A stretch of 5,799 nucleotides of DNA from Pseudomonadota bacterium (lineage in GTDB: Bacteria; Myxococcota; Polyangia; GCA-2747355; JACKDQ01). The stretch is from the NCBI GenBank assembly GCA_030591195.1, contig JAUVBO010000232.1, forward strand, positions 1 through 5,799, written 5' to 3'. Positions 960-5,799 of this stretch are shown here, piece after piece; the first letter of the stretch is position 1, and the number at the start of each line of letters is the position of its first letter. Both the position numbers and the translations under genes were made by a program. Under the pieces are notes generated by a model that ran no database searches, was not told the DNA's origin, and saw only the letters and a list, made by a program, of their open reading frames with translations.

Positions 960-1709
960 CTAACGCACGACGCGTCCGAAGAGGGTCCTGGCCGGAAGCA
1001 CGCCCCACCTGAGGCTCTCGGTGCCGTACCACCCGTAGGCGATGGTTCGTCCGGCCTTGTTGGTCACGAAGAGCACGGTGCCGAAGCCGAAGCCGCCGCC
1101 GCTGTCGGCGGCGCGGGTGTCGTCCTGGTGTGGCAGCGAGGTGGCGTCGAGGATCCGGGCCAGATATAGCCGCGGCTTGCCGGGGATCGGTGTCGGCCGA
1201 TCGACGATGAACCCCACGTGCCCGGTGACCTTCGACCGCGAGAGCGGCGAGCGGAGCCAGGCGAACAGATCGCCAGGGCGGGCCTGGGAGATGTGGGCGA
1301 GGCGCTGCCAGCCGCGACGCCCACGCTTCGTCGGCGCGCGCCTGATCGCGTGATAGAAGTCCCTGGCCAGCGGCCGGCGCCGGTTGAGCGCGCGGAGCGC
1401 CCCCGGTGCTGTCCGACGCAGGATCCACGCGGCCATGCCCGAGCAGTCCCAGGCGTAGTAGCCGGCTTTGCGCCGCACCACGGTCCGGGCCTGATAGCGC
1501 GTCTTGCGCACGCTTGCCGCGAGCTTGTTGATCGTGTGGACCACCCGGCTCGCGGCGCGGCCGGCCGCGGCTCGCGGCTCGAGCCGCTGCTCGGCCCGGC
1601 GGTGCTGGCGCCTGCTGCTGCTGCTGCCGGATCTGCGGGGCTCGGTCGCGCCAACCAGCGCGACGGCGGCAGCGACCACCAGCGGCGGCTTTGCAAGGCG
1701 AGCCCGCAT
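960..1709 (-). CDS. Secreted NlpC/P60-like cysteine peptidase (249 aa)
   Basis: This is a likely cell-wall peptidase or amidase of the papain-like NlpC/P60 (or CHAP) type. Seen in sequence, with numbering from the ATG at 1709: a signal peptide with basic MRARLAK, a hydrophobic core LVVAAAVALV and a likely cut after GA at residue 21. An Arg/Ser-rich linker runs to about residue 80. Then comes YYAWDCSG with the probable catalytic Cys89, RPGDLFAW (145-151), GHVGFIV with the probable catalytic His164, and ILDATSLPH with Asp188 and His194 as candidates for the third residue. The order DCSG, PGDL, GHVG is the family hallmark. A TTG at 1727 would add six residues before the signal peptide and has no better ribosome binding site. 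The purine-rich AGCAGGG directly before the ATG is too close to be ideal, so the start is moderately sure. The gene lies 64 bp downstream of the zinc-finger gene on the same strand. The substrate cannot be read from sequence; the mature protein is unusually arginine-rich. Confidence 0.82.
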   Translation of the reverse strand: MRARLAKPPLVVAAAVALVGATEPRRSGSSSSRRQHRRAEQRLEPRAAAGRAASRVVHTINKLAASVRKTRYQARTVVRRKAGYYAWDCSGMAAWILRRTAPGALRALNRRRPLARDFYHAIRRAPTKRGRRGWQRLAHISQARPGDLFAWLRSPLSRSKVTGHVGFIVDRPTPIPGKPRLYLARILDATSLPHQDDTRAADSGGGFGFGTVLFVTNKAGRTIAYGWYGTESLRWGVLPARTLFGRVVR

Positions 1710-1743
1710 CCCTGCTTGATACGTCAACAGCGCGCGACTTCAC

Positions 1744-2867: not shown

Positions 2868-2884
2868 TCTACTGGCTGGCGGCT
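2857..2884. terminator. Stem-loop spanning both stop codons of a convergent gene pair
   Basis: AGCCGC (2857-2862) plus GCTAG (2863-2867) can pair with CTGGC (2872-2876) plus GCGGCT (2879-2884) around a TCTA loop, with a 2-base TG bulge. On the + strand this is 11 pairs including one G-U; on the - strand that pair becomes C-A. The stem covers the TAG of the + gene and most of the stop codon of the - gene. No T run follows. It is probably a compact two-way terminator or 3'-end stabiliser. Confidence 0.42.
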
Positions 2885-3368
2885 ACCAGAAGTCGCCGCA
2901 TTCCCTCAGCGAGTAGCACAGGCCTTCTTTCCACCTCGGGTCGGTGGGGGTCACACCGTTGCTGGCGGCCAGCTGGGCCCAGTCACCGTCCCGATCCAGG
3001 CAGGCTTCCTCTTCGGGGGTCGCGCGGTACTCCTCGATGCACTCGGCGATGCAAGCGGGCACCGGGTCACCGCACTTCGGCGAGCAGCCGCTGACGTTGC
3101 CCGCGCTGTCGAAGAAGGTGCAATCGTAGGGCCCACAGGCGCCTGACACGCAAGTGCTCGCCGGCTCGCAGCCCTCATATTCCTTCCCCACGAGACAGGA
3201 GCAGACCTTGTCGCAGCGCGACGCCGGCGTGGGCGTCACATGGGCCTGAGGCTCGACGAGCATGTCGCCCTTGGCCGGCTCGCTGCCGACCGGTTCATCA
3301 ACCGTCCCGCAGGCCACACACAACAAGATGCTGCACGACAGGACACCCAACCAGCTTTGTCGACTCAT
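2883..3368 (-). CDS. Cysteine-rich predicted lipoprotein (161 aa)
   Basis: This encodes a small exported lipoprotein of unknown function, dense in cysteine. The ATG at 3368 follows AGAGGAG with a suitable gap, and opens a signal peptide (MSRQSW, then a hydrophobic stretch) with lipobox CVAC and lipidated Cys20. A longer reading from 3419 would place 17 charged residues before it and is rejected. Residues 21-50 form a Glu/Pro/Thr linker. The mature part has 14 further cysteines, at 52, 56, 58, 67, 73, 78, 83, 95, 99, 106, 110, 123, 151 and 157. The even number is compatible with up to seven disulfides. RCDKVC and PACIAECIEEY have C-x3-C spacing, as in small disulfide-bonded helical hairpins. 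It ends in LRECGDFW. The upstream neighbour, a 361-aa lipoprotein gene, diverges across 308 bp and could share control. Confidence 0.85.
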   Translation of the reverse strand: MSRQSWLGVLSCSILLCVACGTVDEPVGSEPAKGDMLVEPQAHVTPTPASRCDKVCSCLVGKEYEGCEPASTCVSGACGPYDCTFFDSAGNVSGCSPKCGDPVPACIAECIEEYRATPEEEACLDRDGDWAQLAASNGVTPTDPRWKEGLCYSLRECGDFW

Positions 3369-3371
3369 ACG

Positions 3372-3389
3372 ATCTCCTCTTGCGAGAGG
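3372..3389 (-). promoter_or_regulatory. Ribosome binding site of the cysteine-rich gene, in a small hairpin
   Basis: On the - strand CCTCT (3389-3385), loop CGCA, then AGAGG (3380-3376) form a perfect 5-bp stem. Its right arm is part of the ribosome binding sequence AGAGGAGAT (3380-3372) ahead of the ATG at 3368. Folding would mask the site, so translation could be tuned here; a 5-bp stem is weak evidence. Confidence 0.3.
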
Positions 3390-3541
3390 CGCACGCAGCA
3401 CACCATTGCTTGGGACCAACCATCGGTGTGCCCCAGCGCTGCGATCGCCTCGTTGTTTGGTTGTGCTGTGACCTTTGCACGGGCCGGGCCAGGCGCTAAC
3501 CAGCGGAGATCTCGCTCGGCGCGTTGCTTGGCGCCCGCGAT

Positions 3542-3634: not shown

Positions 3635-3656
3635 TTTACCTGAATATGTTTACCTG
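3633..3656 (+). repeat. Exact 10-bp direct repeat TGTTTACCTG
   Basis: TGTTTACCTG occurs at 3633-3642 and again at 3647-3656, separated by AATA, giving a 14-bp period. It is an AT-richer island ending 20 bases before the start codon at 3677. Such placement suits an operator close to the transcript start. Confidence 0.5.
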
Positions 3657-3676
3657 TGAGCTGCGGGAGGTCTTCG

Positions 3677-4762
3677 ATGCGGTGTTGGCGCGCCATCAGA
3701 CGGGCGCCTCGGATCATGGCGCTGGCTGGGTGGGCGCTCGTCGTCGGCAGCGGCTGCGGCGGCGACGCTGGGCCCGCCAACCTGTCGGATGCAGCGGTCG
3801 AGCCAGACCTGCCCGCGGCCGACGCCGGCAGAGATCCCGACGCGTCGGCGCCTCCTGACCTGCCCGAGCCCGACCTCGGGCCGCCGCTGCCCGTCGATCC
3901 CGAGCTGGCCGACTACGTCGCGCTCGTGGCCCAGGCCGAGGCCAAGCTCGACGTCGATCCGCCGCGCATGCTGGCGGTGATGCGGCAGCTCTATTACGGC
4001 GCGCCGTGGAGCGCCACCTCCAGCAACAGCCTGTGGAAGCTGGTCATCCCGTGCAGCCCGAAGCTGACCGATCCGCGCGGCGAGCTCGGCGACGAGCTGT
4101 TTGGCGCGCTGACCGCCAGGGCCGAGCTGGGCGGCGTCGACGTCGGCCACGTCTTCGCCGGTCTCGAGGCGATGGTCTGTCCCTCGGCCAAGGTCTTTGT
4201 CGTCGACATGAACAACGAGGACTTCGCCACCTGGGGCGGTGACCTCGGGGCCGCCGTGGCCGCGCGCGCCGCCTGCCTCGCCCTCGGCGCCGAGGCCACG
4301 ACCACGCCCAACTGCGGCGGCAAGCCGGGCGGACAGCCGCTGGACTTCTACGTCGGGGTGCACGCACTGGCCGTCGACATCGAGGGGGACCTCGACCCGT
4401 ACGTCATGCGCGCCCAGTTGATGGGCAGCTCGTGCGCCGAGTCGCGGATGCTTCCGCTGGTGCTGAAGCGGCCGCTGTCCGAGCTGTTTGGCGACTACTA
4501 CCTCCGGACCGACTCGGCCCTGGGGCTGGCTCGGCGCCAGCGCGATCGCTGCATCATCGAGCTGCTCGGCGGCGAGCTCGACGGCGGCCAGCTCGCCAAC
4601 CGGGACGCCCTCGTCGAGCAGATCACATCCCAGGTGGCCAGCTTCGCCGAGACGTACTATCTGACGATCCGTACCGGGACGCTCGACGCCGCCGAAAAGA
4701 CCGCGATGGCCACCGACGCGCTCGAGGTCGTCGGTGACTTCATCGACGGCCTGCAGCCGTAG
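3677..4762 (+). CDS. Predicted lipoprotein of unknown function (361 aa)
   Basis: This encodes an exported lipoprotein that I cannot assign to a named family. The ATG at 3677 follows GGGAGG at 3665-3670 by six bases; a GTG at 3656 lies inside a direct repeat and lacks a site of its own. The signal peptide has a strongly basic start (RCWRAIRRAPR), a hydrophobic core and a slightly atypical lipobox GSGC with Cys27. Residues 28-75 are an Asp/Pro/Ala linker (for example PDLPEPDLGPPLPVDPE). The domain from about 76 to 361 is mainly helix-like. Its most family-like block is GVDVGHVFAGLEA (153-165) followed by DFATWGGDLG (182-191), which may mark a conserved or catalytic site with His158, Trp186 and Asp189. 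The mature domain has cysteines at 126, 168, 200, 213, 253 and 292. It ends in a helix-rich FIDGLQP. The propeller gene follows after 208 bp on the same strand but has its own promoter-like sequence. Confidence 0.85.
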   Translation: MRCWRAIRRAPRIMALAGWALVVGSGCGGDAGPANLSDAAVEPDLPAADAGRDPDASAPPDLPEPDLGPPLPVDPELADYVALVAQAEAKLDVDPPRMLAVMRQLYYGAPWSATSSNSLWKLVIPCSPKLTDPRGELGDELFGALTARAELGGVDVGHVFAGLEAMVCPSAKVFVVDMNNEDFATWGGDLGAAVAARAACLALGAEATTTPNCGGKPGGQPLDFYVGVHALAVDIEGDLDPYVMRAQLMGSSCAESRMLPLVLKRPLSELFGDYYLRTDSALGLARRQRDRCIIELLGGELDGGQLANRDALVEQITSQVASFAETYYLTIRTGTLDAAEKTAMATDALEVVGDFIDGLQP

Positions 4763-4773
4763 CGAAGCTTCTC

Positions 4774-4836
4774 GATCGAGCCGCCGGTGGTGTGCACTGG
4801 CACCAGCAGACCTCGTGTGCTGGCACAGATCGAGCC
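4774..4836 (+). repeat. Nested repeats upstream of the propeller gene
   Basis: GATCGAGCC occurs at 4774-4782 and 4828-4836. Between these copies lie GTGTGC-AC-TGGCAC (4790-4803) and GTGTGC-TGGCAC (4815-4826), which differ by two inserted bases and start 25 bp apart. Both inner copies contain the inverted pair GTGC/GCAC. They lie about 110-145 bp before the predicted start of the sigma-54 promoter, the usual distance for activator sites. Confidence 0.4.
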
Positions 4837-4846
4837 AATCTGGCTC
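4832..4846. repeat. Inverted repeat GAGCCA-ATC-TGGCTC
   Basis: Perfect 6-bp arms (4832-4837 and 4841-4846) surround three bases. It could be the 3'-end hairpin of the preceding lipoprotein transcript, about 70 bp after its stop, though no T run follows. It could instead be a protein-binding site upstream of the next promoter. Confidence 0.35.
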
Positions 4847-4909
4847 TGCGGAGAGCGGGGGACGTCAGCAGAAGTCGCATGGTCGCCGTGCATTAGGCGG
4901 CTGAGGGCT

Positions 4910-4926
4910 TTGGCGCGAGCGTTGCA
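4910..4926 (+). promoter_or_regulatory. Sigma-54 (RpoN) -24/-12 promoter
   Basis: TTGGCGCG-AGCG-TTGCA matches the RpoN consensus YTGGCACG-N4-TTGCW at every defined position except one (G for A in the -24 block). The GG (4912-4913) and GC (4924-4925) have the required 12-bp offset. Transcription would begin near 4936, giving a leader of about 35 bases to the ATG at 4971. Known biology: such promoters need an ATP-driven enhancer-binding activator, and these are abundant in myxobacteria. Confidence 0.65.
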
Positions 4927-4947
4927 AGTGTCGCAAGAGTCGCAAAA
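4921..4947 (+). repeat. Three tandem 9-bp units overlapping the -12 element
   Basis: GTTGCAAGT, GTCGCAAGA and GTCGCAAAA follow one another without gaps. The core GTYGCAA is shared by all three. The first unit contains the TTGCA of the sigma-54 promoter, and the other two cover the predicted transcript start and early leader. Confidence 0.5.
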
Positions 4948-4970
4948 GCTGGCGAGAGGAGGACCGAGGC

Positions 4971-5348
4971 ATGTATCGATCTCTTCAAGCATGGGTCTTG
5001 CTCGGGTTCGTCGCTGCTGGTTGTGACTCCCGTGTTCCGACGAATGTCGGCTCGTCCCCTGATGGGGCGCTCGACGATTCCACGTTGGCGCCCGACGCTG
5101 GTGTGGATGCCCCACGATCGGACGTCGTTGCTCCCGCGCCGCCGGACGCGAACGTCGCCCCCGATCTGCCTCCCACGACGGGCTGTGGCCCTCTGCCGCC
5201 GGCGTCGGCGGGACCGCCGTGCGGCCCCGCAGGCAACCCGTGCACCGTGCTCTGCGACGAGCTGCCGCCCTCGAACAAGGCTGGCCACAGGACAGAGCAA
5301 CCTGGCCTCGCGATCGACGAGGACGGTCGAGCTCACGTCCTGCACTAG
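4971..5348 (+). CDS. N-terminal product of the interrupted gene (125 aa lipoprotein) if the TAG is obeyed
   Basis: If the TAG at 5346-5348 is real and read as stop, the product is a 125-residue lipoprotein made of signal peptide, acidic/proline linker, a Cys-rich patch and an incomplete first blade. It would lack the repeat domain and is unlikely to fold as a propeller. This is an alternative reading of the same locus, not an extra gene. Confidence 0.45.
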   Translation: MYRSLQAWVLLGFVAAGCDSRVPTNVGSSPDGALDDSTLAPDAGVDAPRSDVVAPAPPDANVAPDLPPTTGCGPLPPASAGPPCGPAGNPCTVLCDELPPSNKAGHRTEQPGLAIDEDGRAHVLH

Positions 5349-5799
5349 ACCGACGAGGTGAACGCCAAGATCCACTACGCGATCCGGTTGGCCGACGGCA
5401 CCTGGCAGACGGAGACGACGCCGCTCGCCCGGGGCGGTCCGATGGCCTTCGACACCAAGACCGGCGCGGCCTACGTCCTGTCTCGCTCGGAGCCAGCCAC
5501 GCCAGCCACGCTCTGGCGACGCGATGGCTCGGGGTGGGCGCAGCTGGCCCAGCCTCCCATCACCAGCGCCTCGGGGCTGGTCTACGAGGCGAACACGAAG
5601 ACAGGGGTGCTCCATGCCGCTGCGACGACCCAGAGCGGGCTCGCATACGGTCGCTGGGATGGCGCGTGGACCTCGACGCCAGTGGGTGCTCCTCTGTCCA
5701 ACCACAGCGCGCGCGCCATCGCGCTCTCGGCGGGTGGCCAGCCACACCTGGTGATCCAGGGCAAGCTACAGGGCGACTCGGGCTGGCGCTACTTCCACC
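4971..5799 (+). pseudogene. Beta-propeller-like lipoprotein gene interrupted by in-frame TAG (3' end outside window)
   Basis: One reading frame encodes an exported lipoprotein with a repeat domain but contains a TAG at 5346-5348 (codon 126). The ATG at 4971 has AGGAGG eight bases upstream (4957-4962). The signal peptide ends in lipobox AAGC with Cys18. Residues 19-70 are an Asp/Pro/Ala linker, followed by a short cysteine-rich stretch (72, 84, 91, 95). Repeats begin near residue 112. After the stop the same frame stays open for 150 codons to the window edge, with strong G/C bias at third positions. Tryptophans at 145, 189 and 233 in GTW, SGW and GAW are spaced exactly 44 residues apart, and VLH/VLS/VLH motifs precede them. 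This is typical of propeller blades of the BNR or sialidase-like sort. The stop falls within the first visible blade (HVLH, stop, TDEV). Explanations are a recent nonsense mutation, a sequencing error or readthrough. No good start with a ribosome binding site follows the stop; GTG at 5358 is the nearest. Confidence 0.75.

Follow-up and report, generated by a model that had tools for sequence, protein, structure and literature searches.

The window, the whole stretch of 5,799 nucleotides that was analysed, is apparently an entire contig and carries a lipoprotein gene at its right-hand end. The frame of this gene (4971–5798) contains only one stop, a TAG at codon 126, and is still open at the window end (Table 1). 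As the window apparently equals the contig and the frame runs past its end, the gene is present without its 3' end. The piece ahead of the TAG comprises, in order, a predicted signal peptide with a lipobox cysteine (Cys18), a low-complexity linker, a CGP..PC motif and the putative start of the first blade of a propeller. The ribosome-binding site at the gene start was computed to be strong, with a duplex energy of -12.0 kcal/mol for the 20 bases upstream of 4971, compared to a 5% level of -7.6 kcal/mol and a median of -3.0 kcal/mol for random 20-mers of the window. Promoter-like or terminator-like sites were not found in 4760–5799, and tRNA genes were not found in the window. Searches with the lipoprotein gene and its pieces returned only sub-cut-off matches in Pfam, the pre-stop piece had no match among plasmids, and the DNA of the gene had none among phages.

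Table 1 Positions of the lipoprotein gene, its parts and the TAG-ended neighbours within the window.
Feature	Position	Strand	Basis
AGGAGG, the lipoprotein gene's probable ribosome-binding site	4957..4962	+	sequence; 8 bases upstream of ATG 4971
Pre-stop piece, 125 codons	4971..5345	+	profile match and alignment A1
In-frame TAG, codon 126	5346..5348	+	stop at this column in 0/27 distinct relatives
Post-stop piece, 150 open codons, ended by the contig end	5349..5798	+	profile match; third-position GC 0.87, which fits coding
Neighbour gene ending in TAG, 231 aa	2172..2867	+	81% identical relative of 232 aa ends within one residue
Neighbour frame, lipoprotein-like, TAG end, candidate start	3656..4762	+	open frame list
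Neighbour frame, weak CHAP match, TAG end	960..1727	-	Pfam and gene ends
Neighbour frame, lipoprotein-like, TAG end	2883..3419	-	open frame list

The three plus-strand frames at 200–856, 3656–4762 and 4971–5798 all read lipoprotein-like with Asp/Ala/Pro-rich linkers, the former two having no match in Pfam or NCBIfam. On the minus strand, the frame at 960–1727 (listed start TTG) matched the CHAP domain weakly, with an E-value of 4e-4 that misses the curated cut-off, and that at 1774–2040 encodes a predicted DksA/TraR-family C4 zinc finger protein (NCBIfam NF008243, above cut-off) whose nearest relatives are found in Deltaproteobacteria and Myxococcales MAGs (70–80% identical). The product of 2883–3419 is Cys-rich and lipoprotein-like; the ribosome-binding site of ATG 3368 (-9.1 kcal/mol) beats that of the listed TTG at 3419 (-4.7 kcal/mol). 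The gene at 2172–2867 has no Pfam or NCBIfam match, yet 19 relatives besides itself were found (41–81% identity). Matches came from 12 of the 377 phylum genomes and from none of four genomes in the order of G002. Judged by these relatives, it represents a conserved family to which Pfam and NCBIfam assign no function.

One gene on both sides of the TAG

The initial annotation had described the frame from 4971 as coding both before and after the TAG, and as a propeller-type lipoprotein gene with one nonsense codon and no frameshift. An open frame beyond the TAG is weak evidence for this when taken alone, since 150 codons would stay open by chance with a probability of about 0.08 given the base composition of the frame, and since three of the four TAG-ended neighbours precede 75–92 open codons (the four runs being 92, 87, 16 and 75 codons). 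A family profile was therefore what decided the matter: it was built from seven intact full-length relatives (418–555 aa), and each piece matched it separately, the pre-stop piece at profile positions 7–116 (E 8.2e-8) and the post-stop piece at positions 127–254 (E 6e-15). Among 400 shuffled controls (200 per piece) the lowest E-value was 0.22, and no other open segment in the window came below 0.052 (102 segments of at least 30 residues). The two matches are collinear with no frameshift between them, ruling out a frameshift or a chimera at the site. With homology as the decisive evidence, the two pieces flanking the TAG are read as one gene, and the observation of a single in-frame TAG within a coding frame was confirmed. 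The proposed lipoprotein signal is likewise consistent with the alignment, as the cysteine is aligned in all eight rows of A1, and the propeller assignment agrees with the family match and with the predicted structure of an intact relative (see below). The earlier interpretation held for one interrupted gene encoding a predicted propeller lipoprotein; its unfixed residue at the stop did not hold, and general TAG suppression and phase switching are argued against.

A divergent member of an unnamed lipoprotein family

The relatives came from some searches and not from others. A phmmer search with the read-through protein (5.8 billion proteins; 3342 candidates) returned no match at E 0.01, and scanning genome contigs by pattern gave 36 stretches, none of them a relative. 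In a first look at four genomes, the best match had an E-value of 0.0027 and none was taken as a family member; one weak match in these genomes (E 0.106) contains an internal TGA. The phylum was reached via a relative of the DksA-like neighbour in a Myxococcales genome (L002), and a six-frame search of 377 genomes gave matches of E 1e-3 or better in at least 11 genomes, at no fewer than 12 places. No internal stops were found in these places, where several matches span the TAG position, nor in the at least 15 places of a further search of the same 377 genomes. In the order of G259, one of the genomes that match the neighbour gene at 2172–2867, the family was found in none of four genomes. Four named members are encoded by Polyangium mundeleinium, P. 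jinanense, P. sp. 6x1 and P. spumosum (P0022–P0025), and are annotated as "hypothetical protein" or "Lipoprotein". A literature search joining Polyangium, lipoprotein and beta-propeller found nothing.

Homology places the window gene in this unnamed lipoprotein family of Polyangium and other genomes of the phylum, as a divergent member. Like the Polyangium proteins, its product has the lipobox cysteine, the linker, the CGP..PC motif and an R.D..P motif ahead of the first blade, and the conserved Trp, Gly and His residues of the blades align throughout the piece contained in the window. Cys18, Cys84, Gly85, Pro90 and Cys91 are invariant across the eight rows of A1. The gene differs from the Polyangium family in sharing only 26–32% identity with the seven relatives in A1, in carrying the TAG and in having its 3' end outside the window. 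The seven intact relatives have uninterrupted frames (418–555 aa), and that of the window gene is broken at codon 126; it is thus a disrupted member of the family by descent, non-working as read. In a tree of 20 rows, no end branch is longer than that of the window row (2.71, the next being 2.38), which could be plain divergence. A metagenome relative, P0033, has a first ~45 residues that misfit the family, with the remainder fitting; by eye, this N-terminal stretch appears to be another frame of the same region, and P0033 may be a second family member with a lesion or an error just upstream of the same blade.

The fold of the family was approached through the intact relative P0025, whose family has no match in Pfam. 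Its model (pLDDT 83.5, pTM 0.83) had propellers as structure matches, and the family members are accordingly predicted to be beta-propellers. The TAG maps to strand 109–117 of the model, where the predicted propeller starts. Compared to the PLL/PHL lectins of Photorhabdus and to the Bacteroides propeller enzymes BT3686 and BACINT_00347, identity was 11–16% and the TM-score on the query 0.50–0.54 across the two groups, a predicted likeness of fold, with any sugar binding or catalysis being putative. Among PDB sequences, the window protein gave one weak, chance-like match (E 0.24). The family profile matched two lectins (E 3e-5 and 1e-4) with no single stretch passing alone, and a thrombin fusion (E 0.0098) on its low-complexity part.

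Residue at the TAG column and termination at TAG

From a comparison of internal blades, it had been suggested that the ancestral residue at the stop was not fixed. The comparison proved misleading: among 27 distinct relatives, the TAG column holds Ser in 21, Ala in three, and Arg, Thr and Ile in one each, and in the closer alignment A4 Ser is found in 15 of 16 rows. Five of the rows (L109–L112 and L114) belong to distant relatives that are aligned at the column with little certainty; leaving these out, 22 distinct rows hold 19 Ser, two Ala, one Arg and no stop. L088 has a gap at the column in the pairwise alignment and Ala in the multiple alignment. The 27 relatives are ~30% identical to the window gene, and closer ones were not found. 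The initial annotation had also considered homologs that end at this position and are followed by a separate downstream gene, and this arrangement was seen in none of the 27. The stop comes early in the gene (codon 126, with at least 420 expected) and at a column that codes for an amino acid in the intact relatives, as would be the case for a nonsense pseudogene.

TAG serves as an ordinary stop in the window, ending four of its six other called genes. For one of these, at 2172–2867, the end is backed by homology, and the agreement with its 81% identical relative to within one residue argues that TAG is a working terminator here. Genome-wide recoding of TAG was ruled out by the four TAG-ended neighbours, which also argue against the general TAG suppression proposed earlier.

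Readings of the in-frame stop

We favour the reading that the lipoprotein gene is interrupted by one real, recent and non-programmed nonsense codon, being either a null allele at strain level or a pseudogene of very recent origin, with a probability of about 0.62; this figure, and the weight given to every other reading, is a judgement. Translation would begin at 4971 behind the ribosome-binding site computed as strong, and the product would, judging from its lipobox, be exported and lipidated at Cys18. It would end at the TAG after 125 residues, as a lipoprotein that retains the linker and CGP..PC motif. As this product would stop inside the first blade, the propeller could not form, going by the model of the intact relative. 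The part beyond the TAG would be untranslated, or translated by rare basal readthrough only.

The lesion would have to be young, as the 150 post-stop codons contain zero further lesions. At the 5% level and with an assumed indel:substitution ratio of 0.1, this limits unconstrained drift to ~0.05 substitutions per site, with limits between 0.08 (ratio 0.05) and 0.03 (ratio 0.2), and 0.19 when stops alone are counted. The post-stop piece shows no sign of decay, which speaks against the favoured reading, as do its retention of 14 of 28 core-invariant residues and the missing 3' end of the gene. Counted from Cys72 on, the window protein keeps 11 of 17 such residues before the stop; for nine other divergent relatives the counts are 5–15 before and 11–22 after it, seven of the nine exceeding 14 in the post-stop part. 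The residues kept and the long branch fit a divergent family member whose lesion is young or, should the base call be wrong, one that carries no lesion.

Such a wrong call is the main competitor, and we consider it possible but clearly less probable than a real allele. The TAG would then stem from an erroneous base call or consensus in a contig of metagenome type, the organism itself having an intact gene. A miscalled base and a genuine in-frame stop look the same in a contig, the window's protein is one sequence on one contig with no second copy, no other lesion lies within the gene, and conserved post-stop residues are retained to about the extent seen in intact relatives. Two weak arguments stand against an error: the other five genes of the contig are open as listed, with no frameshift or stop in their called frames, so that the contig does not seem error-rich, and the site has neither a tandem nor an inverted repeat.

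The remaining readings, in which the stop is part of how the gene works, are all improbable. According to the survey of Belinky et al. 2021 (PMC7918605), in-frame stops are widespread in bacterial genes and mostly short-lived in evolutionary time, with dN/dS values below 1, and frequent readthrough is suggested. The window gene resembles the cases in that survey in having a lone in-frame stop with the frame continuing beyond it, but the surveyed stops were common to orthologs of at least two species and this one is found in one sequence only. A suppressor or near-cognate tRNA might read the TAG at a low level, yielding some full-length propeller lipoprotein with the stop setting the dose. The frame beyond the TAG does still resemble a family member, and the survey (PMC7918605) offers a precedent. 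However, a conserved readthrough site would show a stop at the same place in relatives, and here none of the 27 (~30% identical) has one; TAG ends most other called genes of a window that contains no tRNA. With none of these relatives, all distant, sharing the stop, readthrough is without positive support and is unlikely. Less likely still is a genuine TAG that is maintained and, through a low rate of readthrough, acts as a dose switch on the cell surface, by which mostly the short CGP..PC lipoprotein and little of the full-length protein would be made.

Least probable of all, if narrowly, is separate translation of the two pieces, the second from an internal start downstream of the TAG. In-frame starts do occur there, GTG 5358 and ATG 5442, and the upstream match of the latter is borderline (-7.2 against the 5% level of -7.6 kcal/mol). 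GTG 5358, the nearest downstream start, has no ribosome-binding site, its value of -1.8 kcal/mol being weaker than the random median. Moreover, the second piece would have no signal peptide and, if started at 5442, would also have an incomplete first blade. A split at the TAG column occurs in none of the 27 distinct relatives, ruling out two genes by design. Strain-level phase loss had been a further option of the initial annotation. In 5246–5446, no inverted repeats were found and the direct repeats were limited to two short ones (10–11 bases, two copies each), and there was no tandem array at the TAG site; repeat-driven phase switching was ruled out on these grounds. Of the options listed at the outset, a young nonsense allele and a base-call error thus remain.

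A single TAG matters little on its own, given that the survey (PMC7918605) reports such stops as widespread among bacterial genes. What is of use is that the residue at the TAG column is now known from relatives, and that 150 open codons in DNA of 68% GC can be seen to be weak evidence until homology is added. The affected gene probably encodes a surface lipoprotein of a myxobacterium-like bacterium, and with it an uncharacterised family of predicted propeller lipoproteins without a Pfam match is now described.
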